NCBI GenBank assembly: GCA_014138725.1
Contig: JACJID010000003.1
Coordinates: forward strand, 434,001 to 498,000
Length of the DNA stretch: 64,000 nt
Source of the DNA: Kutzneria viridogrisea
GTDB taxonomy: Bacteria > Actinomycetota > Actinomycetes > Mycobacteriales > Pseudonocardiaceae
Reading direction: 5' to 3'
The first letter of the stretch is position 1, and each line of letters opens with the position of its first letter. The position numbers were made by a program, and so were the translations under genes. Below, piece after piece: positions 16,139-37,697 of the stretch. The notes beneath the pieces were generated by a model. That model was not told the DNA's origin. It did no database searches and saw only the letters and a program-made list of their open reading frames with translations.

Positions 16139-16163
16139 GCAGCACCTTCCGAGGAGGTTCGGC

Positions 16164-18269: not shown

Positions 18270-18292
18270 CGAGGTCGTGCTCCTTCGCTGAT

Positions 18293-19207: not shown

Positions 19208-19253
19208 AAGTGCCGTTCCTGGCGTTGAACGCCAGGAACGGCACTTTCATGGC
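19201..19253. terminator. Second 53-nt palindrome of the CATGAA-GTGCC family
   Basis: Two 26-nt complementary arms flank a single G, with the same outer (CATGAAAGTGCC) and central (GTTGAAC) sequences as the copy at 13017-13069. The middle stem differs on both sides in a compensating way (GTTCCTGGC paired with GCCAGGAAC). It contains the stop of the MmyB-like gene and ends 8 nt before the stop of the convergent alcohol dehydrogenase. Confidence 0.8.
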
Positions 19254-19261
19254 ATCGGGGG

Positions 19262-20359
19262 TTAGCTGGCGAAGACGGCCTTCATGACGGAGCCCTCGGC
19301 GACGGCGGCCAGGGCGGCGGCGTGCTCGTCGAGGGCGAAGGCGGTGACGAGGCTGGCCAGGTCGAAGCGGGCGGCCAGCGCGGGCAGCAGGCGGACGTAC
19401 TCGACGAGGTGCGCCCCGGTGAAGGCCCAGGAGCCGACGACGTCGAGTTGGCGGTGCACGATCTGGTGCGGGTTGAGCGTGGTGTCCCCGGCGTCGGTGT
19501 ACTGGCCGATGACGAGGTACGAACCACCGCGCCGGGCCAGGCGCAGGCCCTGGGAGACCGCGGCGGGCACACCGGCGCACTCGATGACCAGGTCGGCGCC
19601 CAGCCCACCGGTCTCGGCGAGCACCTGTGCCAGCACGGCATCGGGGTCGGCGGCCTCGGCGATGTTCAGGTGCACCTCGCCGATACCGGCGGCAGCGGCC
19701 TGGGTGAGGCGAGCGGCGGGGCCGCCGACGAGGATGACCTTGGCGGCACCGGCGAGCTGGGCGAAGGCCGCGGCGGCCAGGCCGACCGGGCCGCTGCCCT
19801 GGACGACGACGGTCTCACCCAGGCGCACGGGGCGCCGCTCGTAGAGTGCGTGCACCACGGTGGGCCCCGCACAGGCCAGGGACATGGCGGCCAGCGGATC
19901 CGTGCCCTCGGCGACCTTGATCACGGTCGTACCGGCTTGCAGCACGATGTGGTCGGCCCACGCACCGGACAGCTCGGGACCATCCACAGTGGACCGGTTG
20001 ACCCCGTAGGTGCGGCGGTTCTCGCACAGCGTGGGCTCCCGGTGCAGGCGGCACGGAACGCAGGTACCGCAGGCGATCGAGGAGGCCCACATGACGGTGT
20101 CACCGACCGACAGGGGGGCACCCGCGGCGTCCTTGTCCACGCCGGGTGCGAGTTCGCGCACGACGCCGAGGCCCTCGTGACCGAGCACGAGCGGGGTCGG
20201 GATGTTCAGGTGACCGGCGTGCAGGTGCAGGTCGGTGCCGCAGATCCCGCCGAACCCGCAGGCGACGATCATGCCGCCCGCAGGGGCTTCTGGGATGGTG
20301 AACTCCCGCAGCGCCAAGGGCTTCCCGAACTCCTCCAGGACGACAGCACGCGCGCTCAT
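19262..20359 (-). CDS. Zinc-dependent alcohol dehydrogenase (MDR family)
   Basis: 365 aa. Catalytic-zinc ligands are in GGICGTDLHLHAGH and LVLGHEGLG. The structural-zinc cysteines are in CGTCVPCRLHREPTLC, and the Rossmann loop is QGSGPVGLAAAAFA. This is a classical zinc alcohol or threonine-type dehydrogenase. The ATG overlaps the stop of the dioxygenase gene, which makes it the last gene of the long biosynthetic operon. An oxidation of a hydroxyl introduced by that dioxygenase would be a logical role (inference). Confidence 0.85.
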   Translation of the reverse strand: MSARAVVLEEFGKPLALREFTIPEAPAGGMIVACGFGGICGTDLHLHAGHLNIPTPLVLGHEGLGVVRELAPGVDKDAAGAPLSVGDTVMWASSIACGTCVPCRLHREPTLCENRRTYGVNRSTVDGPELSGAWADHIVLQAGTTVIKVAEGTDPLAAMSLACAGPTVVHALYERRPVRLGETVVVQGSGPVGLAAAAFAQLAGAAKVILVGGPAARLTQAAAAGIGEVHLNIAEAADPDAVLAQVLAETGGLGADLVIECAGVPAAVSQGLRLARRGGSYLVIGQYTDAGDTTLNPHQIVHRQLDVVGSWAFTGAHLVEYVRLLPALAARFDLASLVTAFALDEHAAALAAVAEGSVMKAVFAS

Positions 20360-21162
20360 GCCGACACCTGGCCGGTCAGGAAGGATTCGGCCAGCGGGCG
20401 CAGCGGCTCGGTGTCGCGGCAGACCACGTAGTCCGGCCGCGGCTCACCGGGCCAGCTGGGCAGGTTGGCCACGTCGTTGTAGGTGGCGATGAGCAGCCTG
20501 CGCGGGAACGGGGACATGTTGGGCGCCGAGCCGTGCACGATCTCCGGGGAGAAGAACACGATCGAGCCCGCGGGCCCCTTGGGGCTGACCATGCCGCGCC
20601 GGTCCACGTGCTCGGCCAGCTGCTCGGCGCTCAGCGCGATGTCGTCGGGGTCCAGGTGCTGCTCCGACTTGGCCTGCTCGGTGCGGCCCTCGTGCACCAG
20701 CCCGTTGCGGTGCGAACCGGGCAGGAAGATCACCGGGCCGTTGAACTCGGTGACGTCGTCGAGGAACACGCCGATGTTGACCTGGCGCGGGGCGGGCAGG
20801 TTGTCGGCGATGCGCCAGGCAAGGTAGTCCTGGTGCCAGGACCACTTCTCGCCGCCGAAGGCGGGCTTGGCGTTGATCTTGAACTGGTAGACGTAGACGT
20901 CCTCGGTCAGCAGCTGCTGCACCGGGACCAGCACGCGCGGGTCGCGGACCAGCCCGGAGAACTCCGGCTGGCGCTGGTGCGAGGCGTAGACCGCGCGCAC
21001 CTGGCTGCCGTCCTCCTCGGCGACCAGGTGCGGGCCGGGGGTCTCGCAGTCGCGCTGGAAGCTCGCGCGAAGCTGCTCCACCTCCTGCTGGTCGAGTGCG
21101 GACTCGACCAGCAGGAAACCGTCCTCGTGGTACTGCGCGAGCTGCTTGTCGTTCAAACGCAT
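20356..21162 (-). CDS. Phytanoyl-CoA dioxygenase-family Fe(II)/2-oxoglutarate oxygenase
   Basis: 268 aa. The iron triad is visible as His-x-Asp in WSWHQDYLAWR and the distal His in SPEIVHGSAPN; the fold motif FNGPVIFLPGSH is between them. The architecture resembles ectoine hydroxylase and other PhyH enzymes that hydroxylate free or carrier-bound amino acids. The ATG at 21162 begins a domain-complete protein (MRLNDKQLAQYHEDGFLLV); longer starts lie in non-homologous sequence. It is coupled to the alcohol dehydrogenase by a 4-nt overlap. Confidence 0.88.
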   Translation of the reverse strand: MRLNDKQLAQYHEDGFLLVESALDQQEVEQLRASFQRDCETPGPHLVAEEDGSQVRAVYASHQRQPEFSGLVRDPRVLVPVQQLLTEDVYVYQFKINAKPAFGGEKWSWHQDYLAWRIADNLPAPRQVNIGVFLDDVTEFNGPVIFLPGSHRNGLVHEGRTEQAKSEQHLDPDDIALSAEQLAEHVDRRGMVSPKGPAGSIVFFSPEIVHGSAPNMSPFPRRLLIATYNDVANLPSWPGEPRPDYVVCRDTEPLRPLAESFLTGQVSA

Positions 21163-21194
21163 GGTTGTTCCACTCCAGATCTCGGGTATGGGCC

Positions 21195-21929
21195 TCAGCC
21201 CATGAAGTGCCCGCCGTCCACGATGAGCTGCTGTCCGGTGACGTAGGCGCTGCGCGCGGTCACCAGGTACTCCAGCGCGTCGGCGATGTCCTGGGTGCCG
21301 CCGATCCGTCCCTGCGGGATCCGTTGCAGCACTTCGGAAAGGCGGTCGGGGTCGTCGAGCCGGTAACGCTCGGTGACCTCCGCGGTGTCGGTGAACCCGG
21401 GCAGCAGGGCGTTGACCCTGACGTGCGGCGCCAGTTCCAGCGCCATGCACTTGGTCAGTTGCAACAACCCGGCCTTGCTGGCGCAGTAGTTCGCGCCATC
21501 GCGCCTGGGCCGGATCGCCGTGGTGGCACCGATGTTGACGATCACGCCCGCGCCCTGCTCCACCATCGCCGGGGCCAGCGCCCTGCTGAGGTGGAACGGG
21601 CCGGAGAGGTTGGTGGCCAGCACCTCGTCCCAGTCCTGTTCGGACAGTTCGAGGAAGGAGCGGTCCCGGTTGACCCCGGCATTGTTCACCAGTACGCGGA
21701 CAGTGCCGTGCTCGCCGAGGATCCGTTCGCAGGCCGAGCGGATCTCCCGCGGTTGGGCCAGGTCCACCTTCAGCGGCAGCAGGTGCTCGTGCTCGGCGGC
21801 CTGCTTGGCGGCCAGTTCGTCAGCACGGTACAGCGCGATCACGTTGTGCCCCAGTGCGATCAGGCGCAGGCTCAGCGCGAGCCCGATGCCCTTGGTGCCA
21901 CCGCTGACGACCGCGAGCGGCTTGCTCAC
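21195..21929 (-). CDS. SDR-family oxidoreductase with altered catalytic Ser
   Basis: 244 aa of the FabG type: [30 protein letters not shown] and a DGGHFMG C-terminus. The residue normally Ser before the YxxxK motif (FabG INIGS) reads VNIGATT, so Ala replaces Ser, with Thr following. Activity may be altered or use the Thr. It overlaps the panD stop by 4 nt. It may act on a carrier-bound keto or hydroxy intermediate of the cluster. Confidence 0.82.
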
Positions 21930-22348
21930 ACCGGCTCCGCGACGCGGTCACCGCGCAGCAGACCGGATCCCTCGGGCACGGCGGCCGGGTCGCTGCCCAG
22001 GTCGAGCACCTTGTTGTCGGCGTCCACGAACACCACGCTGGGCTCGAACTGCTTCGCCTCGGCGTCGGCCATGTTCGCGTAGGCGATGATGATCACCAGG
22101 TCACCGGGGCTGATCAGCCGGGCGGCGGCCCCGTTGATACCGATGATCCCGGAGTCGCGCGGGCCCTCGATCACATAGGTGGACAGGCGGTTGCCGTTGT
22201 CGATGTCGACGATGTCCACCTTCTCCCCCGGCAGCAGGTCGGCGGCCTCCATCAGGTCGGCGGAGATCGTCAGCGAGCCCACGTAGTGCAGGTCGGCCTG
22301 CGTCACGGTGGCACGGTGGATCTTCGACTTCATCATGGTGCGGTCCAT
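21926..22348 (-). CDS. panD: Aspartate 1-decarboxylase
   Basis: 140 aa, with the hallmark N-terminus [21 protein letters not shown]. Self-cleavage at Gly-Ser in YVGSLTIS generates the pyruvoyl cofactor. [20 protein letters not shown] is the conserved core. It makes beta-alanine from L-aspartate. The usual partner panBC genes are absent; instead it sits inside a biosynthetic operon between a flavin reductase and an SDR. It therefore probably supplies beta-alanine, or another decarboxylated precursor, to the product. Whether the cell has another panD cannot be seen here. Confidence 0.92.
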
Positions 22349-22355
22349 CGTGACC

Positions 22356-22886
22356 TCAATCCCTCGGTGTGGTTTCGGTGGCGGGTGGCCAGGTTGCGTA
22401 GGTGCGCAGGCCGTACAGCAGCGCCTGTGCGGGATCGCCGCACGAGCCGGTGCGCACGACCTCGCCGAGCACGATCGTGTGGTCGCCCGCCGGGTCCAGG
22501 CGCACCACGCGGCACTCGGCCACGGTGTGCGCGTCCTGCTCCAGCAGTGGCAGGCCCGAGCCGGGCGCGGGCCGCCACGGCACGGCGGAGAACCGGTCCG
22601 CGGTCCGGCTGGTGAAGGCCTCGGCCGCGCGCTGCCCCCTGGTGTGCAACAGGTTCACCGCGAAGTGCCCGCTGCGGGTCAGCACCGGCAGGGTGCGCCC
22701 GGTGTTGGCGGCGCACACCAGCAGCATCGGCGGGTCCAGCGAGACGGCGCACAGGGCGGTGCAGGTGAACCCGTGCGGGGTGCCCTGCTCGTCGATGGTG
22801 GTGATCACGGCCACCGAGCTGGGATGCGCTCCCATCAGTTCGCGGAACTGCTCCGCGCTGACGGTGCCGGTGGTCGCGGCGGTCAC
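22356..22886 (-). CDS. Flavin reductase (HpaC-like)
   Basis: 176 aa from the GTG at 22886, which overlaps the stop of the upstream acyl-CoA-dehydrogenase-like gene (GTGA). The conserved pattern [45 protein letters not shown] is the flavin-reductase-like split barrel. Such proteins give reduced FMN or FAD to a two-component monooxygenase. Direct coupling to the acyl-CoA-dehydrogenase-fold gene at 22883-24073 suggests that gene is an oxygenase rather than a dehydrogenase. Confidence 0.88.
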
Positions 22887-24073
22887 CAGTCGAACGCCTG
22901 TGCGTCGTACAGGTTCACGCCCAGCGCGGCCTTGCCCAGGTACTCCAGGCACTCGTCGGGCTTGGCGGGCATCACCGAGGAGAACGAGGCCTCCCGGATG
23001 TAGCGCTCCAGCGGCTGCGAGCGGCTGACCGCGGCCGAGCCGCAGACCCGCAGCGCGTCCTGGGCCAGCGCGGGCCCCACCTCGCCGACCAGGTACTTGG
23101 CGGCGTGCACCATGGCGTTGGCCTCCAGGCTGCCGCGCTCGGCGTCCACCTGCGCGCCCGCGGCGTGCACCAGGGCGCGGGCCGCCCGCAGCCGAGCCGA
23201 CATGCGGCCCAGATCCCGTTGCAGCACAGCGGATTCCGCCCGCTTGGGCGAGGCTGCCACGTAGTCGGCGCTGAACTGGTAGATCGCCTCGGCGATGCCA
23301 AGGTAGGCACCGGTGTAGCCGGCGGCCATCCAGTGCGGCTCGCGGACGAGCTTGAACAGGGACATGCCCTCCACACCGAGGAACAGGCGTGCGCGCGGGA
23401 CCTTCACCCCGTCCAGCTTCATCGCGGCGGTGCTGGTGCCGTACATGGCCGACAGGCCGTGCACCTCGCCGAAGCTGATGCCCTCGTCCTGCGCGGAGAC
23501 CACGAAGTGCGAGACCTCGCCGGTGCCCTCGCTGCCCTCGGCGCGGGCGACGACCACGTAGTAGTCGGCGACCCCGGCCAGCGAGACGAAGGACTTCTCG
23601 CCGGTGATCACGAAGTGCTCGCGGTCCTCGCTGAGCCGGTAGCTGGTGCGGATGCCGCGCAGCTTGGCCCCGGTGCCCAGCTCGGAGGTGGCCGAGGCGA
23701 ACATCTTGCGCCCGGACACCACCTCGTCGAACAGCCAGGCGCGGAACTTCTCGGCGGCGGGCGGCAGTGCGGTGCCCGCCGACTCGGAGAGCGCGCCGAT
23801 CGCCACGTTGTGCATGTTGAAGCCCAGTGCGGCGGCACCGTTGTGGGCGCCGAGCACCGCCAGAACCCTTGAGTAGTCGGCGAAGCCGAGCCCGGCACCG
23901 CCCGCCTCGCGGGGCACGAGCAGGCCGAGCAGCCCGGCATCGCGCAGGATGCGGTAGGTCTCGTGGCCGTTGCTGCGACCGGCGTCCACGTCGGCGGCCA
24001 GCGGGGCCAGTGCGGCGCCGGTCTGCTCGGCCAGCTTGAGGATCTCGTCCATGGTTGTGGGCAACGTCGTCAT
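22883..24073 (-). CDS. Acyl-CoA dehydrogenase-fold flavoenzyme, probable two-component monooxygenase
   Basis: 396 aa with the ACAD fold: FASATSELGTG and the ITGEKSFVSLAGVADYYVV middle domain. The C-terminal catalytic region is unusual (REASFSSVMPAKPDECLEYLG): it lacks the EGT motif of ordinary acyl-CoA dehydrogenases. The helix carrying the alternative base reads REPHWMAAGY. ACAD-fold N-hydroxylases and nitrososynthases (VlmH, KijD3, DnmZ families) work with reduced flavin from a partner, and here a flavin reductase overlaps by 4 nt. Oxygenation of an amine or a carbon is inferred; the substrate is unknown. Confidence 0.75.
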   Translation of the reverse strand: MTTLPTTMDEILKLAEQTGAALAPLAADVDAGRSNGHETYRILRDAGLLGLLVPREAGGAGLGFADYSRVLAVLGAHNGAAALGFNMHNVAIGALSESAGTALPPAAEKFRAWLFDEVVSGRKMFASATSELGTGAKLRGIRTSYRLSEDREHFVITGEKSFVSLAGVADYYVVVARAEGSEGTGEVSHFVVSAQDEGISFGEVHGLSAMYGTSTAAMKLDGVKVPRARLFLGVEGMSLFKLVREPHWMAAGYTGAYLGIAEAIYQFSADYVAASPKRAESAVLQRDLGRMSARLRAARALVHAAGAQVDAERGSLEANAMVHAAKYLVGEVGPALAQDALRVCGSAAVSRSQPLERYIREASFSSVMPAKPDECLEYLGKAALGVNLYDAQAFDW

Positions 24074-24085
24074 CGGTTGTCCTTG

Positions 24086-25216
24086 TCAGTTCTCGACCGG
24101 GAGGCCGAATTGGCGGGCGACGCCCACACGCAACAGGTCGTTGGGACCGGCGTAGGTCAGCGCGGCCATCGGGCTGTGCAGGTCTGCCGGGAGTTCGGAG
24201 TCGGCGATGAACGCGCGCACCCCGGACAGGGCCGTGGCGTGCTCGGTCAGCCGCACGTAGTCCTCGGAGACGGAGATCTTGGTCAGCGCGGCCTCGGCGG
24301 CCAACTGCCTGGCGGGCGTGCCCGCGTCCAGCCGCGCCGCCATGGCGTACAACAGAGTGCGCGAGCGGTGCACGGCCATCGCCATGTCGCTGATCCGGGC
24401 GGCCACCTGGTGGCTGTTGCCCATCACACGGCCGAACTGCTCGCGCCGGGCGGCCCACTCGGTGATACGCCGCAGCAGCCTGCGCATCGGGCCCAGGGCG
24501 TAGCCGAGGATCACCGCGCGCTCCCACGCCGTGGTGGAGGCCATCACGGCCAGGCCGGAGCCCTCCTCCCCGACCAGGCTGTCGGCGGGCAGCCGCACCC
24601 CGTCGAAGACCAGCTCCCCCATCGGGACCGTGCTCAGCGCGGTCTTGTCGAACTCGCTGCCGCGGATCACACCCGGCGTGTCGGCCGGGAACAGGAAGGC
24701 CGACAGCGCGAACGGGGAACGGCCCTCGGCGGTGCGGGCGAAGGTCAGCACCAGGTCGGCCACCGGGGCCGCGGTGATGAAGGTCTTGGCCCCGTCGAGC
24801 ACGTACCCGTCACCCTCGCGGCGGGCACGGGTGTCCATGGACAGCGGATCGCTGCCGCCCCTGCGCTCGGTCAGCGCGTGGCACACCAGTGTCTGTCCAT
24901 TTTGGACGTGCGCGAACTCGGCCCAGGCCGCCTCGGACAGGGTTGCCCGCAGCGGGAACTGCATGCCGAACAGCTGGGAGGCCAGCGCGTAGACCACGCC
25001 GGGATCGATCCCGGCCAGGCCGATGCCCTCGATGACCGCCAGGCTGCGGGTGACCGTGCCCTGTGCCATGCGCAGCACGCCGAGCTCGGCCATTGCCTGC
25101 CACTGGTCGAGGAAACCCTTGCCCGCCAACAGCTCCGCGATCGGCGTTGCCCGGTCGCGGAACTCGGCGACCACCTCCTCGGTGGCGGCGCAGCCCAGCC
25201 GGGGCAGCTCGGTCAC
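24086..25216 (-). CDS. Acyl-CoA dehydrogenase-family oxidase acting on a carrier-bound substrate (probable)
   Basis: 376 aa from the GTG at 25216, overlapping the carrier-protein stop. ACAD signatures include CHALTERRGGSDPL, DGAKTFITAAP and REQFGRVMGNSHQ. The usual C-terminal base is missing (TYAGPND instead of YEGTN). A Glu in helix G (about residue 232, AWERAVILG) matches the base position of isovaleryl-CoA dehydrogenase. Position directly after an adenylation enzyme and a peptidyl carrier protein mirrors PltE/PltF/PltL-type systems, where the ACAD oxidises a prolyl-S-carrier. The amino acid used here is not certain. Confidence 0.8.
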   Translation of the reverse strand: MTELPRLGCAATEEVVAEFRDRATPIAELLAGKGFLDQWQAMAELGVLRMAQGTVTRSLAVIEGIGLAGIDPGVVYALASQLFGMQFPLRATLSEAAWAEFAHVQNGQTLVCHALTERRGGSDPLSMDTRARREGDGYVLDGAKTFITAAPVADLVLTFARTAEGRSPFALSAFLFPADTPGVIRGSEFDKTALSTVPMGELVFDGVRLPADSLVGEEGSGLAVMASTTAWERAVILGYALGPMRRLLRRITEWAARREQFGRVMGNSHQVAARISDMAMAVHRSRTLLYAMAARLDAGTPARQLAAEAALTKISVSEDYVRLTEHATALSGVRAFIADSELPADLHSPMAALTYAGPNDLLRVGVARQFGLPVEN

Positions 25217-25476
25217 TGGGTCGCCCCCGCGGGCAGCGACTCGATGAGCTTCCACAGCGCGGCGGGGCTGCGGAAGTTGGCCGCCACGATCTCGGTGTCC
25301 GGCAGCACGATCCCGGCCTGGCTGTTCAGCGCGGTGACGATCTGCATGATCGCCAGCGAGTCGAGCAGGCCCATCTCCAGCAGCATCGTGTCCGGGGTCA
25401 GCTGCTGGGGGCTCTGGCCGCGGCCCCAAGTGATCTGGCCGCTGATCAGGGTGCAGAGGTCTTCGACGCTGGTCAT
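25213..25476 (-). CDS. Stand-alone acyl/peptidyl carrier protein
   Basis: 87 aa. The phosphopantetheine attachment Ser is in GLLDSLAIMQIV, preceded by a helix and followed by the acidic VLPDTEIVAANF recognition region. Its ATG and stop overlap the adenylation and ACAD genes by 4 nt each. It would carry the amino acid activated by the adjacent enzyme while ACAD-fold enzymes modify it. Confidence 0.9.
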   Translation of the reverse strand: MTSVEDLCTLISGQITWGRGQSPQQLTPDTMLLEMGLLDSLAIMQIVTALNSQAGIVLPDTEIVAANFRSPAALWKLIESLPAGATQ

Positions 25477-27032
25477 ACCGGGATCTCCTCGGTGCTAGTG
25501 GTGGTGGGGGCGGCGGGGAACTCGCCGCCGAGTGCGCGGCGGTCGACCTTGCCGCTGGTCGTGGTGGGCAGGCTCGGCAGCACCACCACGCGGTCGGGCA
25601 GCATGCGCTTGGGCAGCGCGGCACCCAGCGCGGTGAGCACCTCGGCCTCGGTGGAACCGGTCTGCACGTAGGCCCAGAACTGCCCGCTGTGCTCGCCCTG
25701 CTTGGCGACCACGGCCGCGGTGGCCACGCCGGGCAGTTCCAGCACGGCGCTCTCCACGTCGAGCAGGTCGATGCGGTGACCGCGCCGCTTGACCTGGGAG
25801 TCGCGCCGGCCGCGCAGGTACACCAGGCCGTCGGCGGTGATGCGGCCGATGTCCCCGCTGAAGTAGGCGCGCTGCACGCTGCCGTCGCGGAAGGCCACCA
25901 GCGCGGTGGGATCGCGCAGCACACCCCGCTCCAGGTAGCCCTGGAACACCGTGGGGCCGCCGACGACGATCTCGCCCTCCCCGTCGGTGGGCCGCCCGTC
26001 CTCGTCGAGCACCTCGATGGTGACCCCGCCGATGCCCCGGCCGATGGTCAGCTCCTGCTCGGCGGTCCAGTCCGCGGGCATCCGGTAGTAGGTGCAGGCG
26101 TTGGTCTCGGTGGGGCCGTACAGGTTGTAGAACGGCACGTCCCCGAGCAGTTCCAGGTAGCGCTCCAGGTGGCGCGGGGCGAAGGCCTCGCCGCCGAAGG
26201 CCGCCACCCGCAGCGTGGGCGGCACGGACTCGGCGAAACCGCCCTGGAGCAACATGTTGTGGTACAGGGAGGGCACCGCCATGAACGCGGTGATCTGGTT
26301 GTCGTTGAGCCAGTTCACCACGTCGCGCGGGAAGGCGCGCAGCACGTCGGGCATCAGCACGGCGCAGGCACCGGCCGAGGCCGCGCTGTAGAGGTCGAAG
26401 GTGGTCAGGTCGAAGGTCAGCGCGGCCTGCGAGCCGATCCGGTCCCGCTCGGTGAGGCCGAACTCCTCGGCGGCCCACAGCGCGTAGTGCGCCACGTTCT
26501 CGTGCGAGAGCAGCACTCCCTTGGGCCAGCCGGTGCTGCCCGAGGTGAACAGGATGTAGCCGCCCTGGTCGGTGGGCGCGGGCAGGGCCTCGGGGCGGTC
26601 GGCCTCGGCGATGGTGCGGACCCAGTTCAGCCCGCAGTCCAGCTCACCCGAGCCCAGGTCCACGCCCTCGGTGGCCAGCTCGGCGGCCTCGCGGCAGGCG
26701 CCAAGCGAGCGGTCCACGGTCAGCAGCACCGACAGCCCCGCGTTGTGCACCATGCGGGCGGTGCGGGCGGGCGGGTCGGCCACGTCCATCGGGGCCACGA
26801 CGGCACCAGCGCGCAGCCCGGCGTAGATCGCCATGACGGCGGAGGAGCCCTTGCCCGCGTACACCCCGATCCGGTCACCGGTGCGGATCCCGGCCGCGCT
26901 GAGCTGCCAGGACAGCTCCTCGACGAGCTGCTCCAGCTCGGCGTAGGTCCAGGTGCGGCCCTCGGCGGCCAGCGCGGGCCGCTCCGGGTACAGCTTGGCC
27001 GCGGTGCTCAGCAGTGCGTCCAGCCTGGTCAC
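25473..27032 (-). CDS. Stand-alone amino acid adenylation enzyme
   Basis: 519 aa from the GTG at 27032. Core motifs: A3 LFTSGSTGWPKG, A4 TFDLTTFDLY, A5 NLYGPTE, A7 YFSGDIGR, A8 GRRDSQVKRRGHRIDLLDVE and A10 TTSGKVDRRAL. Reading the ten-residue pocket by alignment to GrsA from memory gives about D-L-F-M-A-G-L-A-C-K. The Asp at the first position favours an alpha-amino acid, and the DL...L-x-CK pattern is reminiscent of stand-alone prolyl-AMP ligases (PltF type) without matching them. It overlaps carrier and hydrolase genes by 4 nt each. Confidence 0.88.
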   Translation of the reverse strand: MTRLDALLSTAAKLYPERPALAAEGRTWTYAELEQLVEELSWQLSAAGIRTGDRIGVYAGKGSSAVMAIYAGLRAGAVVAPMDVADPPARTARMVHNAGLSVLLTVDRSLGACREAAELATEGVDLGSGELDCGLNWVRTIAEADRPEALPAPTDQGGYILFTSGSTGWPKGVLLSHENVAHYALWAAEEFGLTERDRIGSQAALTFDLTTFDLYSAASAGACAVLMPDVLRAFPRDVVNWLNDNQITAFMAVPSLYHNMLLQGGFAESVPPTLRVAAFGGEAFAPRHLERYLELLGDVPFYNLYGPTETNACTYYRMPADWTAEQELTIGRGIGGVTIEVLDEDGRPTDGEGEIVVGGPTVFQGYLERGVLRDPTALVAFRDGSVQRAYFSGDIGRITADGLVYLRGRRDSQVKRRGHRIDLLDVESAVLELPGVATAAVVAKQGEHSGQFWAYVQTGSTEAEVLTALGAALPKRMLPDRVVVLPSLPTTTSGKVDRRALGGEFPAAPTTTSTEEIPV

Positions 27033-27814
27033 GAGAGTTCCTCGGCTTTCTGCGTGCGGTTCGCGTGCTCGGCGAGGAAGACGCAGGTCTGCTCGATGAC
27101 CAGGTCGGGGCAGACCAGGTGCGGGTAGTGGTCCACACCTTCGGGCACCACCCGCTTGACCGGCCCGGACACCGAGCGCTCCAGGGCGTCGAGCTGGTCG
27201 AGGCTGCCGTACTCGTCGCGGTCGCCCTGGATCATCAGCACGGGGTCGGTGACCGCGGCCACGTCCGCCTCGATGTTCCAGCGGCTGAACTCCTCGGAGA
27301 GCCAGACCTGGCTCCACCGGTCGAAAACAGACTTCGGGTCCCGGTGGACCAGCCCCATCTTCCTCGCGAGTGGACCGTCCGCATAGGACTGTTGCGCGGC
27401 CAGGATGCCCAGCCGGTTCTGCTCCTCGAAGTACAGGTGGGGACCCAACGCGACCACGGCCTCCACCGGGCGGATCGCCGCGTACAGCAGGCCCATGGAG
27501 CCGCCGTCGCTGTGCCCGACGAAGACCGGGCGCCGCACGTCGAGCAGGTCGAGCAGTTCCGGCAACGCCTCCTGCCCCTCCTCGTGCACGTAGCGCGCGG
27601 TCTTGGGCCTGGTGGCCGGGCCCGAGTAGCCGCTGCCGATGCGGGAGAACAGCAGGGCGCGGCGGCCGGTCTCGGCGGCCAGCAGGGACGGGAAACGCCC
27701 CCAGGAGGCGGTGCAGCCCAGCCCGCCGTGCAGGAATACCAGCGGAGCCAGATCAGGGTCCCCATCGATGAAGAAATGTTCGACGGGGCCATTCCGTGTC
27801 TCGACTACAGGCAC
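27029..27814 (-). CDS. Alpha/beta hydrolase of the biosynthetic operon
   Basis: 261 aa from the GTG at 27814, with AAAGGG 8 nt upstream. An in-frame ATG at 27925 would add 37 residues that look uncharacteristic. The fold markers are VFLHGGLGCTASWG, the nucleophile elbow VGHSDGGSMG, Asp in QGDRDEYGSL and His in EGVDHYPHL. It could release or trim a carrier-bound intermediate, or act as a thioesterase-like editing enzyme (inference). It is the first gene after the 280-bp gap that divides the operon. Confidence 0.75.
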   Translation of the reverse strand: MPVVETRNGPVEHFFIDGDPDLAPLVFLHGGLGCTASWGRFPSLLAAETGRRALLFSRIGSGYSGPATRPKTARYVHEEGQEALPELLDLLDVRRPVFVGHSDGGSMGLLYAAIRPVEAVVALGPHLYFEEQNRLGILAAQQSYADGPLARKMGLVHRDPKSVFDRWSQVWLSEEFSRWNIEADVAAVTDPVLMIQGDRDEYGSLDQLDALERSVSGPVKRVVPEGVDHYPHLVCPDLVIEQTCVFLAEHANRTQKAEELS

Positions 27815-28015
27815 GCGACTACCCTTTCGGAAAATATCGGCAACAAGGTGCCGGAACGCAGCGCTCGCCCTCACGAGCGCAGGTTCAAGAAACGGACCCA
27901 CCCCGGATCCGCGCAGGCTCCACATGGGAGCAGGAAGTGTGAAGAGCGACTACGCGCTCAGAGATGTACTCACGAAAACAACGCCCCCCAGCGTTATCGA
28001 ATTCCCCCAGACGCA

Positions 28016-28049
28016 GTTGACCGTACCCGAGCAAAACTCGATGGTCAAC
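28016..28049. promoter_or_regulatory. Promoter with inverted repeat in front of the left half of the cluster
   Basis: On the minus strand TTGACC (28043-28048) and TACGGT (28020-28025) are separated by 17 nt and could drive the hydrolase-to-alcohol-dehydrogenase genes. The boxes lie within an inverted repeat of GTTGACC and GGTCAAC (7-nt arms, 20-nt gap), a possible operator. The predicted leader is about 200 nt. The surrounding 27815-28094 gap is lower in GC than the rest; I see no convincing gene in it. Confidence 0.45.
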
Positions 28050-28094
28050 CGGTGGTTGAGTGACCAATCCTACGAACAACCAAGGGCGAATCGG

Positions 28095-29225: not shown

Positions 29226-30489
29226 GTGCCGATGTCCTCGTAGTCCAGGCGGATCCGCTCGTCCAGCTCGCGGTGGAACGCGGCGGTCTGCTCGTCGCTG
29301 TCGTGGTGGGACATGATGAACGCCGGGTAGCCCGACCAGTCCGGGTAGGGCCGCACCACGTCGCCGGGCCACAGCATCTGCACCGCGTAGTCCACCCTCG
29401 GGTCCTCGTGCAGCTCCGCGATCCCGTGCACCGCCACGATCCTGCCGTGCCCGCCGCAGGGCACGATGTAGCCCCCGCAGTGCCCGTGGTGCTCGATCGG
29501 CTTGCCCCAGCAGTGCGGGCGCTGCCCGGTGAGGATGCGGATGGTCTCCGCGGCGTAGTCGATGCCGGTGACGATTCGCGCGACCTGGTGGGTCATGCCG
29601 CCACCACCGATGCGCGCGCCCATCTCCAGCAGGTGCGGGCGCCCGCGGTGCAGGCGCAGCTCGGTGTGCGTGGCGGCGTCGGTGATGCCGAACGCGGCGT
29701 GTGCCGCGGCGACCTCGCGCACGATCTCGTCCCGGACCTCCTCCGGCAGCACGGCGGGGCTACGGAAGCCCACCTCCTCGAAGTACGGACCGACCGGCTT
29801 TCCCTTGTCGCTGACCACGACCACGGTCACCTCACCCTGGAAGGCCAGCGACTCCACGGAGATCTCCGGCCCGTCCAGGTACTCCTCGACCACCAGGCCG
29901 AGCAGCTGCTCGGGGTGCTCGCTGTAGGCGTCGAGCTCGACCCCGCACTGGGCCCAGACCGCGTTCACGGTCCGCGCCAACTCCTCGACACTGTCCACTT
30001 TGGTCACACCGAAGCTGCCGTACCCGTTGGCGGGCTTGACCACCACGGGGAACTCAAGCCTCGCGGCCAGCTCCCACTGTTCGGGCGCGGTGATCGCCAC
30101 GAACCCCGGGGTGTTCAGCCCGGCGGCACGCAGCCGCTCGCGCATCAGCCGCTTGTCCCTGGCCACCTCGGCCGCCTCGAGGGCAAGCCCCGGCAGGCCC
30201 AGTTCGGCGGCGGCCCTGGCCACGAAGGGCACCGCGGGGTCGCAGCCGGACAGGATCCCGGCAAACGGGGACTCCGCGTGCCGCCGCGCCAACTCGGCGA
30301 TGGCCCCGGCCGGGTCGGTGTAGAGCTGCAACGGCAGGCACTCCACGACGACCGGCGGCAGCTTGGCTGGGTCCACCACCTCGTCGTGCCTGGGCACGAG
30401 CACGATGTCGACGCCCACGCGCTCAGCGGCCTCGAACACCCAGGGCAGCGTCGTGCGCTGGTTGACCAGAACCAGCTTGGGTCTGGGGC

Positions 30490-30493
<4 letters not shown>
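29222..30493 (-). CDS. ATP-grasp ligase, L-amino acid ligase-like
   Basis: 423 aa. ATP-grasp signatures: FPVVVKPANGYGSFGVTKV (adenine and phosphate loop), VVEEYLDGPEISVESL and the metal-binding LEMGARIGGGGMTHQV. The arrangement matches the BacD/L-amino acid ligase group that forms peptide or amide bonds through acyl phosphates. GTG 30493 overlaps the stop of the FAD-oxidase gene. I infer that it joins an unusual amino acid of the cluster to another amino acid or amine. Confidence 0.85.
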
Positions 30494-31907
<1,414 letters not shown>

Positions 31908-31911
<4 letters not shown>

Positions 31912-33695
31912 GAGCCCGTCCGCAGCGTCCGGACCTGCTCCAGCCACAGGTCCAGGACGAGCAGCGCCCACAGGGACTTCGCCACGGGGTCGCTGGGCCG
32001 CTCGCGCTGCTCCGCCAGCAGACCGGCCACCGCGCTGGGCACGAGGTAGTCGGCCAGCGCGGTGGACCCACGCAGCCGCTCGGTGGCGTAGCCGAACAGC
32101 GGCTGCCCCTCGCGCAGCATGGCGCCCACCGGCAGCGTGAACGGCTGCTTCTTGCGGTGCAACACCTCCGCGGGCACCAGGCCCTCGGCGGCGGCGTAGA
32201 CCGGGCGCTTGACCTTGCCCTCGGAGATCTTCAACTCCGGGCCGAGCGAGCGCGCGAAGTCCACGATCCTGGGCTGGCAGAACGGCACGCGGACCTCCAC
32301 CGAACTGGCCATGCTCAGGTGGTCGGCCCGGCGCAGGATGTAGTACGGGAACCGGTCCACCTGGTCGAACCGCAGCAGGTCCTCCAGGGTCGGCCGCGCG
32401 CCGAGACCTGCCATGGTGGCGCGGATCCGCGAGGTCGGGCTGTCCGCGTGCGAGGAGATCGCGGCGAACCGCGGGGTGTAGATCGCGTCCCGGATCCGCG
32501 CGGGAACCGGTGCCATGGCGTCCAGGTAGCGCTCGGCCCACCCGGGACCGCCCTGTGCGGCCACGGCGAAGCGCTCGTAGCCACCGAACAGCTCGTCGGC
32601 GCCCTCACCGGCCACGGCCACCTTGAAGCCCGCGGCACGCACCTCGCGGAACAGCACGTAGGTGCTCAGACAGTGCGGGGCCGCGTTGGGCTGCCCGAGG
32701 TGGGCCACCATCTGCGGCAGCAGTTCGGGGAAATCCGCGGGATCGGCCTCCACCTGGTGGTAGACCGCGCCGCTGGCCCGCGCCACCTGCTCGGCGTACC
32801 CGCGCTCGTCGGCGGGCCAGTCACCGCGGTAGGCGATGTTGAAGGTGTGCAGGCCGGGCTGGTGCCGTGCCGCCATTGCGGTGAGCAGGCTGGAGTCCAA
32901 GCCACCACTGGTGATCAGCGCGACGGGCACGTCCGCGCTGAGCAGCGAGCGCACCTCCTCGTCCAGCAGTTCGCGCAACTGCACACCCACCTTGGCCAGG
33001 TCCTGGGCGGGCTCGGGCGCCACGATGCTGGTGCGGTAGGTACGGACCACCGGCGCCCGACCCGGCTCCACGACCACATGGCTGGCGGGGGCGAGCTGCT
33101 GCACGTCGCGGAAGGCGGTGTCGCTGCCCAGCACCGCCAGCATGGACAGGTACAGGTCGATCGCCTCGGGTCGCAGCTCGCTGCTCACCCGGGACACCGC
33201 CAGCAGCGCGGGCAGCTCGGAGGAGAACACGAACTCGCCCGCCCGGTACCAGAAGTACGCCGACTTCGTGCCCAGCGGGTCGTTGGCCAGCAGCAGCCGC
33301 GGGCGGCCCTGCTGGCGCAGGTCGATCACGGCCAGCGCGAACATGCCGTCCAGCAGTTCCACGAACCGGTCCCCGTGTTCCAGGTACAGCGCGGGGATCA
33401 GGCTGCCGTCGCAGTGGTCGGCGAACCGGTAGCCGCGGGCGCGCAGGTCCTGCCGGAGCTGGTCGTGGTTGTAGATCTCCCCGTTGAGCACGGCGATAAT
33501 GTCCTCGCCGTGCCGGTAGGGCTGCGCCCCGCCGTCCAGGCCCTGGATGGCCAGCCGGTTGGCGCCCAGCGACCAGCTGGGGCCGCTGCGGTGGGCCTGC
33601 TGGTCGGGCCCGCCACCGCGCTGGTGCCGGTGCAGGGCGTCGAGATCGCGCTCGGACAGCGGGCTCGCGCCGAGGTTGCCGAAGATCCTGCACAT
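31908..33695 (-). CDS. Glutamine-dependent asparagine synthetase-like amidotransferase
   Basis: 595 aa from ATG 33695, giving the required N-terminal Met-Cys (MCRIFGNLG) of class II glutaminases. The N-terminal domain has LNGEIYNHDQL. The synthetase domain has the PP-loop ITSGGLDSS and GEGADELFGGYERF, with KKQPFTLPVG at the end. The Cys means that it can use glutamine, unlike beta-lactam synthetases, which have lost it. In a biosynthetic operon it probably makes a primary amide or another amide of an intermediate. Confidence 0.88.
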
Positions 33696-33697
33696 GG

Positions 33698-34651
33698 TCA
33701 GGCCCCCAGTCCGGTCGCGGCCAGCGCGGCGCGGCGGCCCACCGGCTCGGTCTGCACTGCCTCGGGCAGGTGGGTGCCCACGATCTCGCGCACGATGGAC
33801 GCCTGCTGGGCCATGCGCCGCGCCTGCTCCACGGTGGTGGCGTGGCCGTGCTCCCCGACGGCGGAGTTGCCCGCCTTGAGGTAGACCGGCGCGAGCAGCC
33901 GCACGAACTCCGGCGCCTCGTACACGCGGATGAACCCGCCGGAGGCCGCCGGGTTGTCGGTGTGGCAGTCCAGCGGCACGGAGATCGCCGACCGCAGCGC
34001 GGCCAGCATGCCCAGTTGCAGGTCCCGCACCGGGTTGATGCTGTCGGCGCCAAGCCGCTCCAGCAGCATCAGGGAGGCGGCGTTGCCGTGCCCGCAGTGC
34101 GCGGAGACCTTCAGGTGCACCTCGCTGGGCAGCGCCCCGCACAGCCGCATCTCGTTGAGTGTCCACAACAGACCCTCGTCGTAGACGACGAAGGAGCGCA
34201 CACCCAGGTCACAGGCGCGCTTGACGTCCTCGATCGCGCGCACGAGCTGTTCCTGGCCGCGCAGGCGGTAACCCATCCGGCTGCCCTGGCTGGACAGGGC
34301 CGAGGCGCTGGTGTCGTAGGTGGCCCGCGGGCCGGGGGACATCACCAGCTCGCAGCCGTAGTCGGCGCACAGGGCCACCATCTCGCGGATCTCCGCCGTG
34401 GTGTGCCGGAACAGGCCCAGGGTCTCGGTGATCCGGTTGACCTGCACGCCGAGGCGGTCGGCCTCGGCCAGCACGGCCTCAGTGGCGGCGGCGGAGTTGA
34501 CGGTGGGGATCTCCAGGCGGAACCAGGCCCCGTCGGCGAAGCGCCGCTGCGAGGCGGGCAGGTTCCAGGCGTCGCGGTCGGGCAGGCCCAGTCCGCGCAA
34601 CTGGGTACGGGTGTGGGCGAACAGCTCGTGCCGGGATGTTTCCTCGGGCAT
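33698..34651 (-). CDS. TIM-barrel protein, U32-peptidase-like
   Basis: 317 aa. The pattern FRLEIPTVNS, then RSFVVYDEGLLWTLNEMR, LKVSAHCGHGNAASLMLLERLGADSINPV and PLDCHTDNPAASGGFIRVYE suggests a U32-like or related TIM barrel with several Cys and His residues that could hold a metal or cluster. U32 homologues include UbiU/UbiV and RNA hydroxylases, which are not proteases. I do not know its reaction. It begins the core operon, 2 nt before the amidotransferase. Confidence 0.6.
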   Translation of the reverse strand: MPEETSRHELFAHTRTQLRGLGLPDRDAWNLPASQRRFADGAWFRLEIPTVNSAAATEAVLAEADRLGVQVNRITETLGLFRHTTAEIREMVALCADYGCELVMSPGPRATYDTSASALSSQGSRMGYRLRGQEQLVRAIEDVKRACDLGVRSFVVYDEGLLWTLNEMRLCGALPSEVHLKVSAHCGHGNAASLMLLERLGADSINPVRDLQLGMLAALRSAISVPLDCHTDNPAASGGFIRVYEAPEFVRLLAPVYLKAGNSAVGEHGHATTVEQARRMAQQASIVREIVGTHLPEAVQTEPVGRRAALAATGLGA

Positions 34652-34726
34652 GGGAAGTCCTCTCGGGCTCGTGGCCTTGCCGGGTGCCGCCGCTCCGGGT
34701 CACGGGGTCGGCGGGTGGGCGGAGGT

Positions 34727-35944
34727 TCAGGGAACTGCCGGTACCGGCAGCGGTTGCGGCTCGGGTGGTGCCGTCGCGCGTCTGCGGCCCAGCAGCAGGT
34801 GGCCCGCCGCGCAGAGCACGCCGACCACCGCGCAGGCGGTCCACACCAGCCAGGTGCCCGCGTACTGCATGGCCAGGCCGCTGAGCACCGGGGCCACCGC
34901 GGAGGCCGCGCCCCAGGCGAGGTTGTAGACCCCCTGGTAGCGCCCGCGCATGGAGTTCGGGGACAGGTCGGCGACCACCGCCATGGAGGTCGGGGAGTTG
35001 GCGATCTCGCCAACCGACCAGATGACCACCGTCGCGGCGTAGAGCAGTGCGGTGCTGGCGAAGGTGGTCAGCCCGAAGCCGACACCGGCGACCAGGGCCG
35101 CGACCGCGAGCACCACCCACGGGTCGGCCCGCTGGGTGAGCTTGCCGATCGGCAGTTGCAGCAGCACGATGGCCACCCCGTTGAGGCCCATCACCAGGCC
35201 GTACTGCGCGGCGGGCACCCCGCTGGCGGTCATCTGCACCGGCAGCGCGACCAGGTACTGCTGGTACACCATGGCCATCAGGAAGGTCAGCACCAGGAAG
35301 CCGAGGAAGAACCGGTCCCGCAGCACGGATTCCCGCCGCGGCCGGGGTCTTGCCTCGGATCGGGTGGTGGGGCTGGTCTCGGGCAGCTTGTAGTAGACGA
35401 TCAGCCCGCAGAGCAGGTTGGCCAGGGCGTTGGCCAGGAACAGCCACAGGAAGCCGTTGCCCGCCAAGGCTCCCGCCATCGCGGGCGCCACGGCGAAGCC
35501 CAGGTTGATCGCCCAGAAGTTCAGCGTGTAGGCGCGGACCCGGTCGGCGGGGGCCACCAGGTCGGCCATCATCGCCGCGCGGGCGGGCCGGGCGGCGTTG
35601 AGCCCGGCGCCGACCAGGAAGGCGAAGACGCCGATGCAGATCGGGTCCACGGCCAGTCCGAGGCCGGTCATGCTGACCGCGGCCAGCACCTGCGCGCCGA
35701 GCAGCGCGGGGCGTCTGCCCAACCGGTCGGTGAGAATGCCGCCGACCAGGCAGGCCAGCATGTTGCCGACCCCGTAGAGCGTCACGGCCAGCCCGGCGAA
35801 GGCCGTGGAATATCCAAGTTGAACGGTCAGGTAAATAGCCATGAACGGAACGACGAAGCCGCCCAGTGCATTGATCAGGGTTCCCGACCACAGCCACCAG
35901 TACTGAGCAGGCAGACCTTGCAGAGAACGCAGCGCGATACGCAC
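34727..35944 (-). CDS. MFS exporter of the biosynthetic cluster
   Basis: 405 aa with 12 predicted helices and the loop signature VGGILTDRLGRRPALLG. The start is taken at GTG 35944 (VRIALRSLQGLPAQYWW); upstream frame sequence is not family-like. It lies 75 bp before the core operon on the same strand and faces a second MFS gene across a 379-bp gap. Export of, and self-resistance to, the cluster product is the natural inference. Confidence 0.83.
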   Translation of the reverse strand: MRIALRSLQGLPAQYWWLWSGTLINALGGFVVPFMAIYLTVQLGYSTAFAGLAVTLYGVGNMLACLVGGILTDRLGRRPALLGAQVLAAVSMTGLGLAVDPICIGVFAFLVGAGLNAARPARAAMMADLVAPADRVRAYTLNFWAINLGFAVAPAMAGALAGNGFLWLFLANALANLLCGLIVYYKLPETSPTTRSEARPRPRRESVLRDRFFLGFLVLTFLMAMVYQQYLVALPVQMTASGVPAAQYGLVMGLNGVAIVLLQLPIGKLTQRADPWVVLAVAALVAGVGFGLTTFASTALLYAATVVIWSVGEIANSPTSMAVVADLSPNSMRGRYQGVYNLAWGAASAVAPVLSGLAMQYAGTWLVWTACAVVGVLCAAGHLLLGRRRATAPPEPQPLPVPAVP

Positions 35945-36323
35945 GACACAACTCTCACGTGGACGATCCCCAGCGGGTCGCACGTAAAGAAAGCGCAAAG
36001 AATTGCACCCGCCATACCGTGACACCGCCCAGGAGCAGGCGAAATACCGACCGAAGACGGCCGTCAACCCTGCGAATGAGTGAATGAGTGGCCAGATTTG
36101 ACCAGGCCAGAACACACCGGTAACGGCATACGCAAACCCCCCAGTCAGCGTGATCGGAACTCGTCATCGTTCCGTGGACCACGCTAGTGGTGAACGTGAG
36201 CCGCACTAGCACTACTCGGCGGTAAGTGAGACAGATCATAGCAACTGTGCCCGAATTGACGACGGTAGGCTGAAACCACACAACGATGAATTGGTCTGTA
36301 CCACAAAAACGGGGGAAACTTCG
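35945..36323. other. 379-bp divergent regulatory gap between two MFS genes
   Basis: The region is less GC-rich than its neighbours. It holds a short palindrome ACCAC-GCTA-GTGGT (36178-36191) and must contain promoters for both exporters. Open frames across it have no family features and no plausible ribosome sites. I find no gene or strong promoter consensus that I can support. Confidence 0.5.
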
Positions 36324-37697
36324 ATGAGCACGGCCACGCCGATCAGGGCAGGCCTGGTGGTGGCGGCGATCGCCACCGGCACCGTCCTCAACCCGCTGGA
36401 CGCCACCATGGTGGCCGTGGCGCTGGCCAGGGTGCAGGCTCACTTCGGTGTCTCGGTGACCGCGGTCTCCTGGTTGGTCAGCGGGTTCTTCGTGGCGGGC
36501 ACCATCGGCCAGGCGCTGATGGGCAGGCTGGTGGACCGGCTCGGAGCGCGCCGCGTGTTCCGCTGGGGTCTGCTGGTGGTGGCGATCAGCTGCGCACTGG
36601 CCCCGCTGTGCCCCTCACTGGGCTGGCTGGTCGGGCTGCGCGTGGTGCAGGCACTGGGCACCTCGGTGGCCTTCCCCGCCGGGCTGGTGATCATCCGACG
36701 GCACCTCACCCTGCCGGACGGCACCCCGCCCGCCCGCGCGATCGGCGCGGTCACCACCACGAACACGCTCTCCGCGGCGGTCGGCCCGTTCGCGGGCGGG
36801 CTGCTGGTGAGCTGGGCGGGCTGGCAGGCCACCTTCCTGGCCAACGTGCCGGTGGCGCTGCTGGCCGTGCTGCTGGCCGGGAAGTGGCTGCCCGCCGACG
36901 AACCGCGCCCCGCGGGGCGCCGCGCACTGTCCGGTTTGGACATACCGGGCGCGCTGCTCTACAGCCTGACGCTGATCTCCGTGCTGGTGTTCCTGTTGCA
37001 GCCGGGCAGTACGGCCTCCTGGATCGCGCTGGCCGCCACCGTGCCCTGCACGGTGCTGTTCCTCCAGCGCGAGCGGCGGACCGAGGAGCCGTTCCTGGAC
37101 GTGCGGCTGATGGCCCGCCGCCCGGAACTGCTGGGCGTGTTCGCGCAGTACGGGCTGGCCAACCTCGCCTACTACGGACTGCTCTACGCGGTTCCCCTGT
37201 GGCTGCAAGGGGTTCGCGGCACCGATCCGACCACCGCGGGGCTGATCCTGGTGCCGATCGCGGTGTGCAGCGCGGCGGTGACCCCGTTCGCGGCGCGGTG
37301 GATCCAGGGCGGCGGCCCCGCTCCCGTGCTGCTGACCGCCTCGCTGGTGCTGGCCATCGGCGGGGCGCTGATGCTCACAGTGGACAGTGCCACCCCGCTG
37401 GTGCTCGTGGCGGCGATCGGCGCGCTGGTCGGAATGGTCAACAACCCCAACACGCTCGGCCTGCAGGCGGTGCTCTACGCGGGCACGCCCACCGAGCAGA
37501 CCGGCACGGTCAGCGGGGTGTTCCAGAGCTTCCGCTACGTGGGCTCGATCCTGTCCACCGCGGTGCTCGGGCTCGCCTTCGGCGGGCACGCCGATGACCA
37601 CAGCCTGCACCTGACGGCGTGGCTGCTGCTGGCCACCGGCGTGCTGATCACCGCGATGAACCTGGTGACCAGGCGGGTCAGCCCAGGGCGCGCTTGA
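36324..37697 (+). CDS. MFS drug-resistance transporter (EmrB/QacA-like)
   Basis: 457 aa from ATG 36324 after GGGGGAAAC. The helix-1 motif LNPLDATMVAVAL and GRLVDRLGARRVF are typical of proton-dependent multidrug pumps (DHA family). It lies divergently from the cluster exporter and may be a second resistance gene. Its stop overlaps the convergent S9 peptidase gene by 20 bp, so the two 3' ends interlock. Confidence 0.85.
   Translation: MSTATPIRAGLVVAAIATGTVLNPLDATMVAVALARVQAHFGVSVTAVSWLVSGFFVAGTIGQALMGRLVDRLGARRVFRWGLLVVAISCALAPLCPSLGWLVGLRVVQALGTSVAFPAGLVIIRRHLTLPDGTPPARAIGAVTTTNTLSAAVGPFAGGLLVSWAGWQATFLANVPVALLAVLLAGKWLPADEPRPAGRRALSGLDIPGALLYSLTLISVLVFLLQPGSTASWIALAATVPCTVLFLQRERRTEEPFLDVRLMARRPELLGVFAQYGLANLAYYGLLYAVPLWLQGVRGTDPTTAGLILVPIAVCSAAVTPFAARWIQGGGPAPVLLTASLVLAIGGALMLTVDSATPLVLVAAIGALVGMVNNPNTLGLQAVLYAGTPTEQTGTVSGVFQSFRYVGSILSTAVLGLAFGGHADDHSLHLTAWLLLATGVLITAMNLVTRRVSPGRA

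Follow-up and report, generated by a model that had tools for sequence, protein, structure and literature searches.

In chalkophomycin biosynthesis the adenylating enzyme ChmJ loads proline on the carrier protein ChmI, ChmG N-oxygenates and ChmH dehydrogenates the bound residue, as shown in vitro, and the product is released by ChmF; ChmH retains the catalytic Glu of the pyrrole-forming enzymes of the acyl-CoA dehydrogenase (ACAD) family, while ChmG has Met instead, and the N-hydroxypyrrole acyl group is a metal ligand in chalkophomycin (PMC10849742). The same report (2024) presents its proline route as the first for which enzymes forming the N-hydroxypyrrole heterocycle were characterised, distinguishes four classes of N-hydroxypyrrole clusters, some of them with non-assembly-line enzymes, and mentions that some N-hydroxypyrroles are of L-leucine origin; a 1991 study of glycerinopyrin biogenesis is cited there, which we read as the source of the leucine statement. 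In griselimycin biosynthesis leucine is converted to methylpyrroline carboxylate by GriE and the zinc dehydrogenase GriF, and the deletion of griH was without effect, for which the authors credit ProC (PMC5676206). A GriE homologue and a cassette with the signatures of ChmFGHIJ were found side by side in a gene cluster of Kutzneria viridogrisea, in a stretch of 64,000 nucleotides (the window; assembly GCA_014138725.1, contig JACJID010000003.1, positions 434,001 to 498,000 of the forward strand) of a genome of 10.25 Mb in 11 contigs.

The cluster consists of two units on the same strand, module 1 (17106-27814) and module 2 (28095-35947). From the sequences compared it is likely that module 1 turns L-leucine into 1-hydroxy-4-methylpyrrole-2-carboxylic acid, that PanD gives beta-alanine and that module 2 couples an amide-bearing amino acid. 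Gene calling by the guanine-plus-cytosine content of codon positions gave 16 minus-strand genes in a row, from 19262 to about 35947, with 4-nucleotide (nt) overlaps at nine of the 15 junctions when the start of the aminotransferase gene is taken at the corrected position 29225. The gene set listed in the original prediction, which had been made from the sequence alone, thus proved real and mostly recognisable after correction of its boundaries, as the Pfam and NCBIfam scans agreed with the earlier list for all but the U32-like protein. The features are the following:

17106..18269, minus strand: exporter of the major facilitator superfamily (MFS), MFS0, conserved with module 1 and next to the regulator (Pfam MFS_1)
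18461..19207, plus strand: MmyB-type helix-turn-helix regulator, conserved with module 1 (Pfam MLTR_LBD and HTH_31)
19262..20359, minus strand: zinc-dependent dehydrogenase with a proposed GriF role, 5-hydroxyleucine to semialdehyde/pyrroline (ADH_zinc_N, ADH_N)
20356..21162, minus strand: GriE-type Fe(II)/2-oxoglutarate leucine 5-hydroxylase, the PhyH protein (match to GriE, PDB 5nch)
21195..21929, minus strand: short-chain dehydrogenase/reductase (SDR), possible pyrroline reductase, apparently dispensable (adh_short)
21926..22348, minus strand: PanD, dedicated second aspartate 1-decarboxylase for beta-alanine supply (TIGR00223, above cut-off)
22356..22886, minus strand: flavin reductase, proposed source of reduced flavin adenine dinucleotide (FADH2) for the N-oxygenase (Flavin_Reduct)
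22883..24052, minus strand: ACAD2, ChmG-type aminoacyl-carrier N-oxygenase (ACAD fold, Met at the catalytic Glu position)
24086..25216, minus strand: ACAD1, ChmH/RedW-type prolyl-carrier dehydrogenase (best PDB matches, catalytic Glu)
25213..25476, minus strand: free-standing peptidyl carrier protein (PP-binding)
25473..27032, minus strand: free-standing adenylating enzyme, code DLFMAGLACK, proposed 4-methylproline specificity (AMP-binding; code comparison)
27029..27814, minus strand: alpha/beta hydrolase, ChmF-type release enzyme (Abhydrolase_1)
27815..28094, no strand: intergenic gap of 280 nt between the modules (gene call)
28095..29225, minus strand: pyridoxal phosphate enzyme of the class I aminotransferase fold (Aminotran_1_2; start set by a GTGA overlap)
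29222..30493, minus strand: ATP-grasp L-amino acid ligase (ATPgrasp_N, ATP-grasp_4, LAL_C2; match to BL00235)
30490..31911, minus strand: GlcD-type FAD-linked 2-hydroxyacid oxidase (FAD_binding_4, FAD-oxidase_C; GlcD model below cut-off)
31908..33695, minus strand: AsnB-type glutamine amidotransferase with N-terminal Cys2 (TIGR01536, above cut-off)
33698..34651, minus strand: U32-like TIM-barrel protein (model and fold search)
34727..35947, minus strand: MFS1, exporter heading module 2, start uncertain, the longer start being read (MFS_1)

The steps that we infer for the host begin with the GriE-type oxygenase, which would hydroxylate leucine at C5. The zinc dehydrogenase would oxidise the alcohol to the semialdehyde, cyclisation would give the methylpyrroline carboxylate, and the reduction of this to 4-methylproline could be the work of the SDR or of the host ProC. 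The adenylase is predicted to put 4-methylproline on the free carrier protein, where the ring nitrogen would be hydroxylated by ACAD2, with FADH2 from the flavin reductase, and the ring dehydrogenated by ACAD1 to the N-hydroxypyrrole; the alpha/beta hydrolase would free the N-hydroxypyrrole acid from the carrier. PanD would provide beta-alanine, probably the amide partner. The aminotransferase, the FAD oxidase, the AsnB-type enzyme and the U32-like protein may build the amide-bearing amino acid, which the ATP-grasp ligase would attach.

The distribution of the cassette was surveyed with the ACADs of the cluster at E<=1e-60. ACAD1 matched in three of 397 genomes of the order and ACAD2 in four of 394 of the class, the window's genome being included in both cases; in the family of genome G723 ACAD1 matched in nine of 394 genomes, and in the genus of G723 in 15 of 392, four of which were already among the nine. 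The 20 distinct genomes of the family and genus surveys were combined with G399, G087, G632 and the window, and about 24-39 kb were read per locus; absences given below apply to these stretches. Adenylase, carrier protein, ACAD1 and ACAD2 occurred together at 23 loci. G632 was treated separately: its adenylase and ACAD2 relatives (C12, L073-L074) lie near beta-ketoacyl synthase genes with no close ACAD1, and they possibly serve an N-oxygenated polyketide starter unit.

A PanD gene accompanied the cassette at 15 of the 23 loci (window, G723, G891, G1019, G770, G781, G947, G899, G1280, G1415, G1180, G1238, G1364, G1370, G1111), always in the order hydrolase, adenylase, carrier, ACAD1, ACAD2, flavin reductase, PanD, SDR, PhyH, zinc dehydrogenase, then regulator and MFS0, with exceptions for the SDR in G723 and G1238. 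Besides the window, 14 genomes of the class thus carry module 1 in this order, together with the regulator and exporter that belong to it. At the eight PanD-negative loci (G945, G1249, G1299, G1158, G1056, G1183, G399, G087) no relative of PanD, PhyH or the zinc dehydrogenase was seen, and no SDR at 45% identity or more. Two of them, G945 and G1249, still carry the flavin reductase, the regulator and MFS0; MFS0 (65-78% identity) and the regulator (69-77%) are present in these two and in all 14 other PanD-positive loci. In G1056 the adenylase and hydrolase genes stand apart from the remaining cassette genes, and no hydrolase match was found in the stretch of G1183. When the proteins of the loci were clustered at 45% identity and families in at least four loci were listed, no further family was common to the PanD-positive loci, the one exception being a LysR regulator at 13 of these 15 loci, the window not among them. 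The conserved syntenic set looked for in related genomes therefore exists for module 1, while the full 16-gene cluster was seen at no other locus read.

The core of module 1 matches, in its predicted enzymes, the chalkophomycin-type N-hydroxypyrrole cassette ChmFGHIJ, and the idea of carrier-tethered amino acid chemistry in the original prediction is backed by the sequence. The catalytic Glu of ACAD1 was present at 23/23 loci and the Met of ACAD2 at 24/24, the window included in both cases; the attachment Ser of the carrier protein was found in 23/23, and the GHS(D/E)G nucleophile motif and the His of the hydrolase in 22/22 loci with a match. The best PDB matches of ACAD1 were dehydrogenases of prolyl residues bound to acyl or peptidyl carrier proteins. 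Like the Chm cassette and HrmKLMN of hormaomycin, the window groups a free-standing adenylase, carrier protein, Glu-type ACAD, Met-type ACAD and alpha/beta hydrolase; unlike them, it has an adenylase code off the proline type at positions 278, 301 and 330, it adds the GriE-type oxygenase, the zinc dehydrogenase and PanD, and it lacks both a ChmK-like adenylase and nonribosomal peptide synthetase (NRPS) genes. A second, ChmK-like adenylating protein occurred only in G399, G087, G1158 and G1299, all PanD-negative, among the 24 clustered loci. The gene order of G399 (MFS, ABC, ABC, hydrolase, ACAD2, ACAD1, carrier, adenylase, second adenylase) is the ChmC-ChmK order tabulated in PMC11085572, and its adenylase code was therefore used as a proline reference.

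The PhyH protein and GriE (5nch) share 140 of 255 residues (54.9%) without gaps (E 1e-95), far above the match to ectoine hydroxylase. The iron ligands H110, D112 and H210 of GriE and R242 are kept in 15/15 PanD-positive loci; V170, a backbone contact in GriE, is replaced by Leu in 15/15. A zinc dehydrogenase gene stands beside the PhyH gene at 15/15 of these loci, as in 4-methylproline synthesis, and is present at 0/8 PanD-negative ones in the stretches read; its product is the natural GriF candidate. The sole solved structure that it matched at E<=1e-30 was 1vj0, and the likeness to GriF is one of family and neighbourhood. No F420-dependent reductase of the GriH type was found among the cluster proteins scanned with Pfam and NCBIfam, in which the window differs from griselimycin, as it does in a product predicted to be oxidised on the carrier and not built into an NRPS peptide. 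The SDR had no match in G723 and was in three pieces in different frames in G1238 (C1, L121), the latter being either decay or a sequencing error. Since it is missing or broken in two of the 15 loci, the SDR fits a replaceable reductase, as with the dispensable griH. In a mining study of griE and griF in actinobacteria, the uncharacterised matches were described as mainly NRPS (PMC10817943).

The adenylase code separates the two groups of loci. The PanD-positive enzymes read DLFMAGLACK in 12 cases, DLFVAGLACK in two and DLFMFGLACK in one, the PanD-negative ones DLFYAALVCK in seven and DLFYAAWVCK in one, and that of G632 DLFYLAFVCK; the final Lys is present in 24/24 loci. At positions 278, 301 and 330, numbered as in GrsA, M or V, G and A were found in 15/15 PanD-positive loci, and Y, A and V in 8/8 PanD-negative loci, so the window enzyme (DLFMAGLAC) does not have a proline-type code. 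The consensus of stand-alone proline adenylases is L(L/F)YLALVC and the code of the 4-propylproline enzyme LmbC of lincomycin biosynthesis is VALVAIGC; mutations showed that Val or Gly at position 330 governs the acceptance of 4-substituents, and the change of LmbC from proline to 4-propylproline is accompanied by V330G and Y278L (PMC3874040). The window enzyme is likewise a stand-alone proline-type adenylase opened at 278 and 330. A 4-substituted proline such as 4-methylproline is the kind of substrate that the remodelled pocket would predict, and the relationship of the oxygenase agrees with the code in this. In a tree of the adenylases (code columns removed, 24 tips) the PanD-positive loci formed a single group, with one change, whereas the ACAD1+ACAD2 tree (23 tips) placed G1299 and G1158 beside the window (supports 0.93 and 0.996), with two changes. 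Beta-alanine as adenylase substrate, an idea prompted by PanD, was dropped, as Asp235 is retained within a proline-type pocket.

The PanD of the cluster is not the only one of the host. Another panD gene lies on a different contig, between genes for pantoate-beta-alanine ligase and type III pantothenate kinase, and the two proteins share 80 of 118 aligned residues. Since the separate copy sits among pantothenate genes, the cluster PanD was taken as a dedicated second copy, and beta-alanine is thus probably a building block and a candidate amide partner. As a guess, the hydrolase may work as a transferase and form this amide. The residue preceding its conserved His is Asp in 15/15 PanD-positive loci, while among the seven PanD-negative loci with a hydrolase it is Gly in six and Asp in one; this split is a weak hint. 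For bolagladin, free beta-alanine was excluded as an intermediate (PMC7756342).

Module 2 probably adds an amide-bearing amino acid, as predicted from its gene families. The ATP-grasp ligase named in the original prediction is supported by its sequence: of its 423 residues, 6-420, nearly the whole length, could be aligned with BL00235, an L-amino acid ligase (E 1e-79), although the window enzyme, unlike BL00235, sits in a biosynthetic cluster and its ligase activity is a prediction. The AsnB-type enzyme begins with MCRIFG, with the N-terminal Cys as residue 2, and scores above the cut-off of the asparagine synthase model TIGR01536; the best NCBIfam match of the aminotransferase was GntC, under its cut-off. 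In the order, 53 of 397 genomes had an ATP-grasp match at E<=1e-30, the closest beyond the window's own being 48-49% identical (G242, G317). The surroundings of the ATP-grasp gene in G317, G242, G124 and G333 held none of the other enzymes of the cluster, apart from further ATP-grasp matches, SDR and MFS matches of low identity (28-31% and 27%) and a single adenylation match (33%, G124).

No model of Pfam or NCBIfam, the U32 profile included, matched the U32-like protein at E<=0.001, and Foldseek and VIA-align returned generic TIM barrels only. A search of genome contigs revealed family members of about 300 residues at 15 loci in other phyla, in bacteria and Methanobrevibacter (L006-L020), with 37-62% identity, while among seven genomes of the genus only that of the window had a match. 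The 16-sequence alignment contained no invariant Cys; its invariant Arg and Lys residues suggest an acidic substrate. The gene lies near an AsnB gene in L006, L008, G770 and G781. In L006 (1435-6339, an alphaproteobacterial metagenome-assembled genome) the U32-like, AsnB-type, Asp/Arg-hydroxylase-type and MFS genes form a four-gene row, which may amount to a small self-contained pathway. Neighbours were annotated at only some of the 15 loci; at the other annotated ones they were genes of the fumarase or tartrate dehydratase type, malic enzyme, malate/lactate dehydrogenase type, MmgE/PrpD, IlvD type, sodium:sulfate symporter type or sugar-acid genes.

Several observations weigh against the proposed pathway. 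In a plain sequence search ACAD2 scored 94 bits against ordinary acyl-CoA dehydrogenases and 48-59 bits against N-oxygenase structures (59 for 3m9v/4kcf, the N-oxygenase KijD3, and 49 for DnmZ), and the likeness to the Chm and hormaomycin enzymes is one of published descriptions and signatures. The window pocket differs from that of LmbC, with M or V and A at 278 and 330 instead of L and G, Phe instead of Ala at 239, and Gly at 301 where LmbC keeps Ala, and other bulky proline analogues would fit it too; moreover, Gly at the key position is necessary and not sufficient (PMC3874040). Some nodes of the ACAD tree are poorly supported (0.21, 0.38; lowest 0.11), and since the code shift amounts to one event in the adenylase tree or two in the ACAD tree, the 15 and 8 loci do not count as 23 independent observations. 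No beta-alanine ligase common to the PanD-positive clusters emerged from the protein clustering, which leaves PanD unexplained where module 1 stands alone. Finally, the modules are separated by 280 nt, and 12 of the 14 other PanD-positive loci have no U32-like or AsnB relative in the stretches read.

These last two points, together with the regulator and exporter which module 1 carries at those 12 loci and the separate MFS gene of each module, would fit the view that modules 1 and 2 are unrelated neighbours, module 1 making a complete small product and module 2 a separate dipeptide amide, and this is a substantial possibility. Pattern scans of the gap (27815-28094) gave no sigma-70-type match and a single weak terminator-like hairpin, where chance alone would give 0.9. 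On the other side, module 1 in G770 and G781 adjoins genes for an MFS protein, an adenylation-carrier-beta-lactamase-fold protein, ATP-grasp (27-28% identity), U32-like (56-57%) and AsnB (45-46%) proteins; yet this arrangement and gene set are unlike those of the window, and a U32-like relative occurred in only five of 17 related genomes searched whole, where it was distant (37-39%). The genes beside module 1 in these two genomes provide moderate evidence that the modules cooperate. The beta-lactamase-fold protein, whose domains were read in G770 (L090:8827-12501) and which is also present in G781, comprises partial condensation, adenylation, carrier and beta-lactamase-fold domains.

The original prediction, a dipeptide-like antimetabolite made by modifying and ligating a carrier-tethered amino acid, appears unlikely as a whole. 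An amide or dipeptide product is plausible in view of the ligase and the AsnB-type enzyme, and the L-amino-acid-ligase type of ATP-grasp, the AsnB-type amidotransferase and the exporters would suit such a compound. However, no evidence for an antimetabolite was found, nothing in the annotation points to a target or to self-resistance, for which no specific search was made, and the chemistry expected of the core would give an N-hydroxypyrrole acyl group, a metal ligand in chalkophomycin (PMC10849742). Pathways of the azaserine, dapdiamide, bolagladin and capreomycidine types were weighed and none fitted. That L-proline is still used, giving plain N-hydroxypyrrole-2-carboxylate as in chalkophomycin, with the 4-methylproline of the PhyH protein and zinc dehydrogenase a separate building block or used elsewhere, is very unlikely: all core enzymes are related to the proline cassette, LmbC retains weak proline activity (PMC3874040) and Phe239 of the proline-type enzymes is retained, but the pocket change follows the PanD, PhyH and zinc dehydrogenase genes (15/15 against 0/8), two opened positions are also opened in LmbC, and no second adenylating enzyme for 4-methylproline is common to the PanD-positive clusters, other adenylation domains lying nearby at single loci (G770, G1180).

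Beyond the cluster, the genes to the left of MFS0 (13754-16448: TetR regulator, luciferase-like oxidoreductase, SDR) and to the right of module 2 (36324-39753: EmrB-type MFS on the plus strand, S9 peptidase) are outside the families common with the module 1 loci.

The cluster had been called unrecognised, which is not wholly the case: half of it corresponds to a chalkophomycin-type cassette (PMC10849742) joined to a GriE/GriF-type 4-methylproline pathway (PMC5676206). Literature searches on its gene combinations did not return this cluster among the matches listed, nor a paper with both N-hydroxypyrrole and 4-methylproline, although the cluster type may already be drawn in Figure 6 of PMC10849742. 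For glycerinopyrin and the surugapyrroles, N-hydroxypyrroles of Streptomyces, no genes were reported in the literature found, so far as its available parts go; a leucine origin is stated for some N-hydroxypyrroles (PMC10849742), which is the origin proposed here. Tentatively, and with some doubt, such clusters may make small, probably metal-binding peptides without an assembly line, from N-hydroxy-4-methylpyrrole acid and beta-alanine and, in this and two other genomes, an amide amino acid formed with the help of the U32-like protein and attached by the ATP-grasp ligase, module 1 representing the missing genes for leucine-derived N-hydroxypyrroles of the glycerinopyrin kind.

For such a leucine route to N-hydroxypyrroles the present analysis provides a gene set that is conserved and specific, with a sequence of steps open to testing, and it offers a reason for the difference in the adenylase code. 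A practical rule is suggested, by which a 4-methylpyrrole cluster would be recognised from GriE-like and zinc dehydrogenase genes accompanied by a remodelled adenylase code. Module 2 draws attention to a widespread TIM-barrel family which recurs near enzymes of the asparagine synthetase type.

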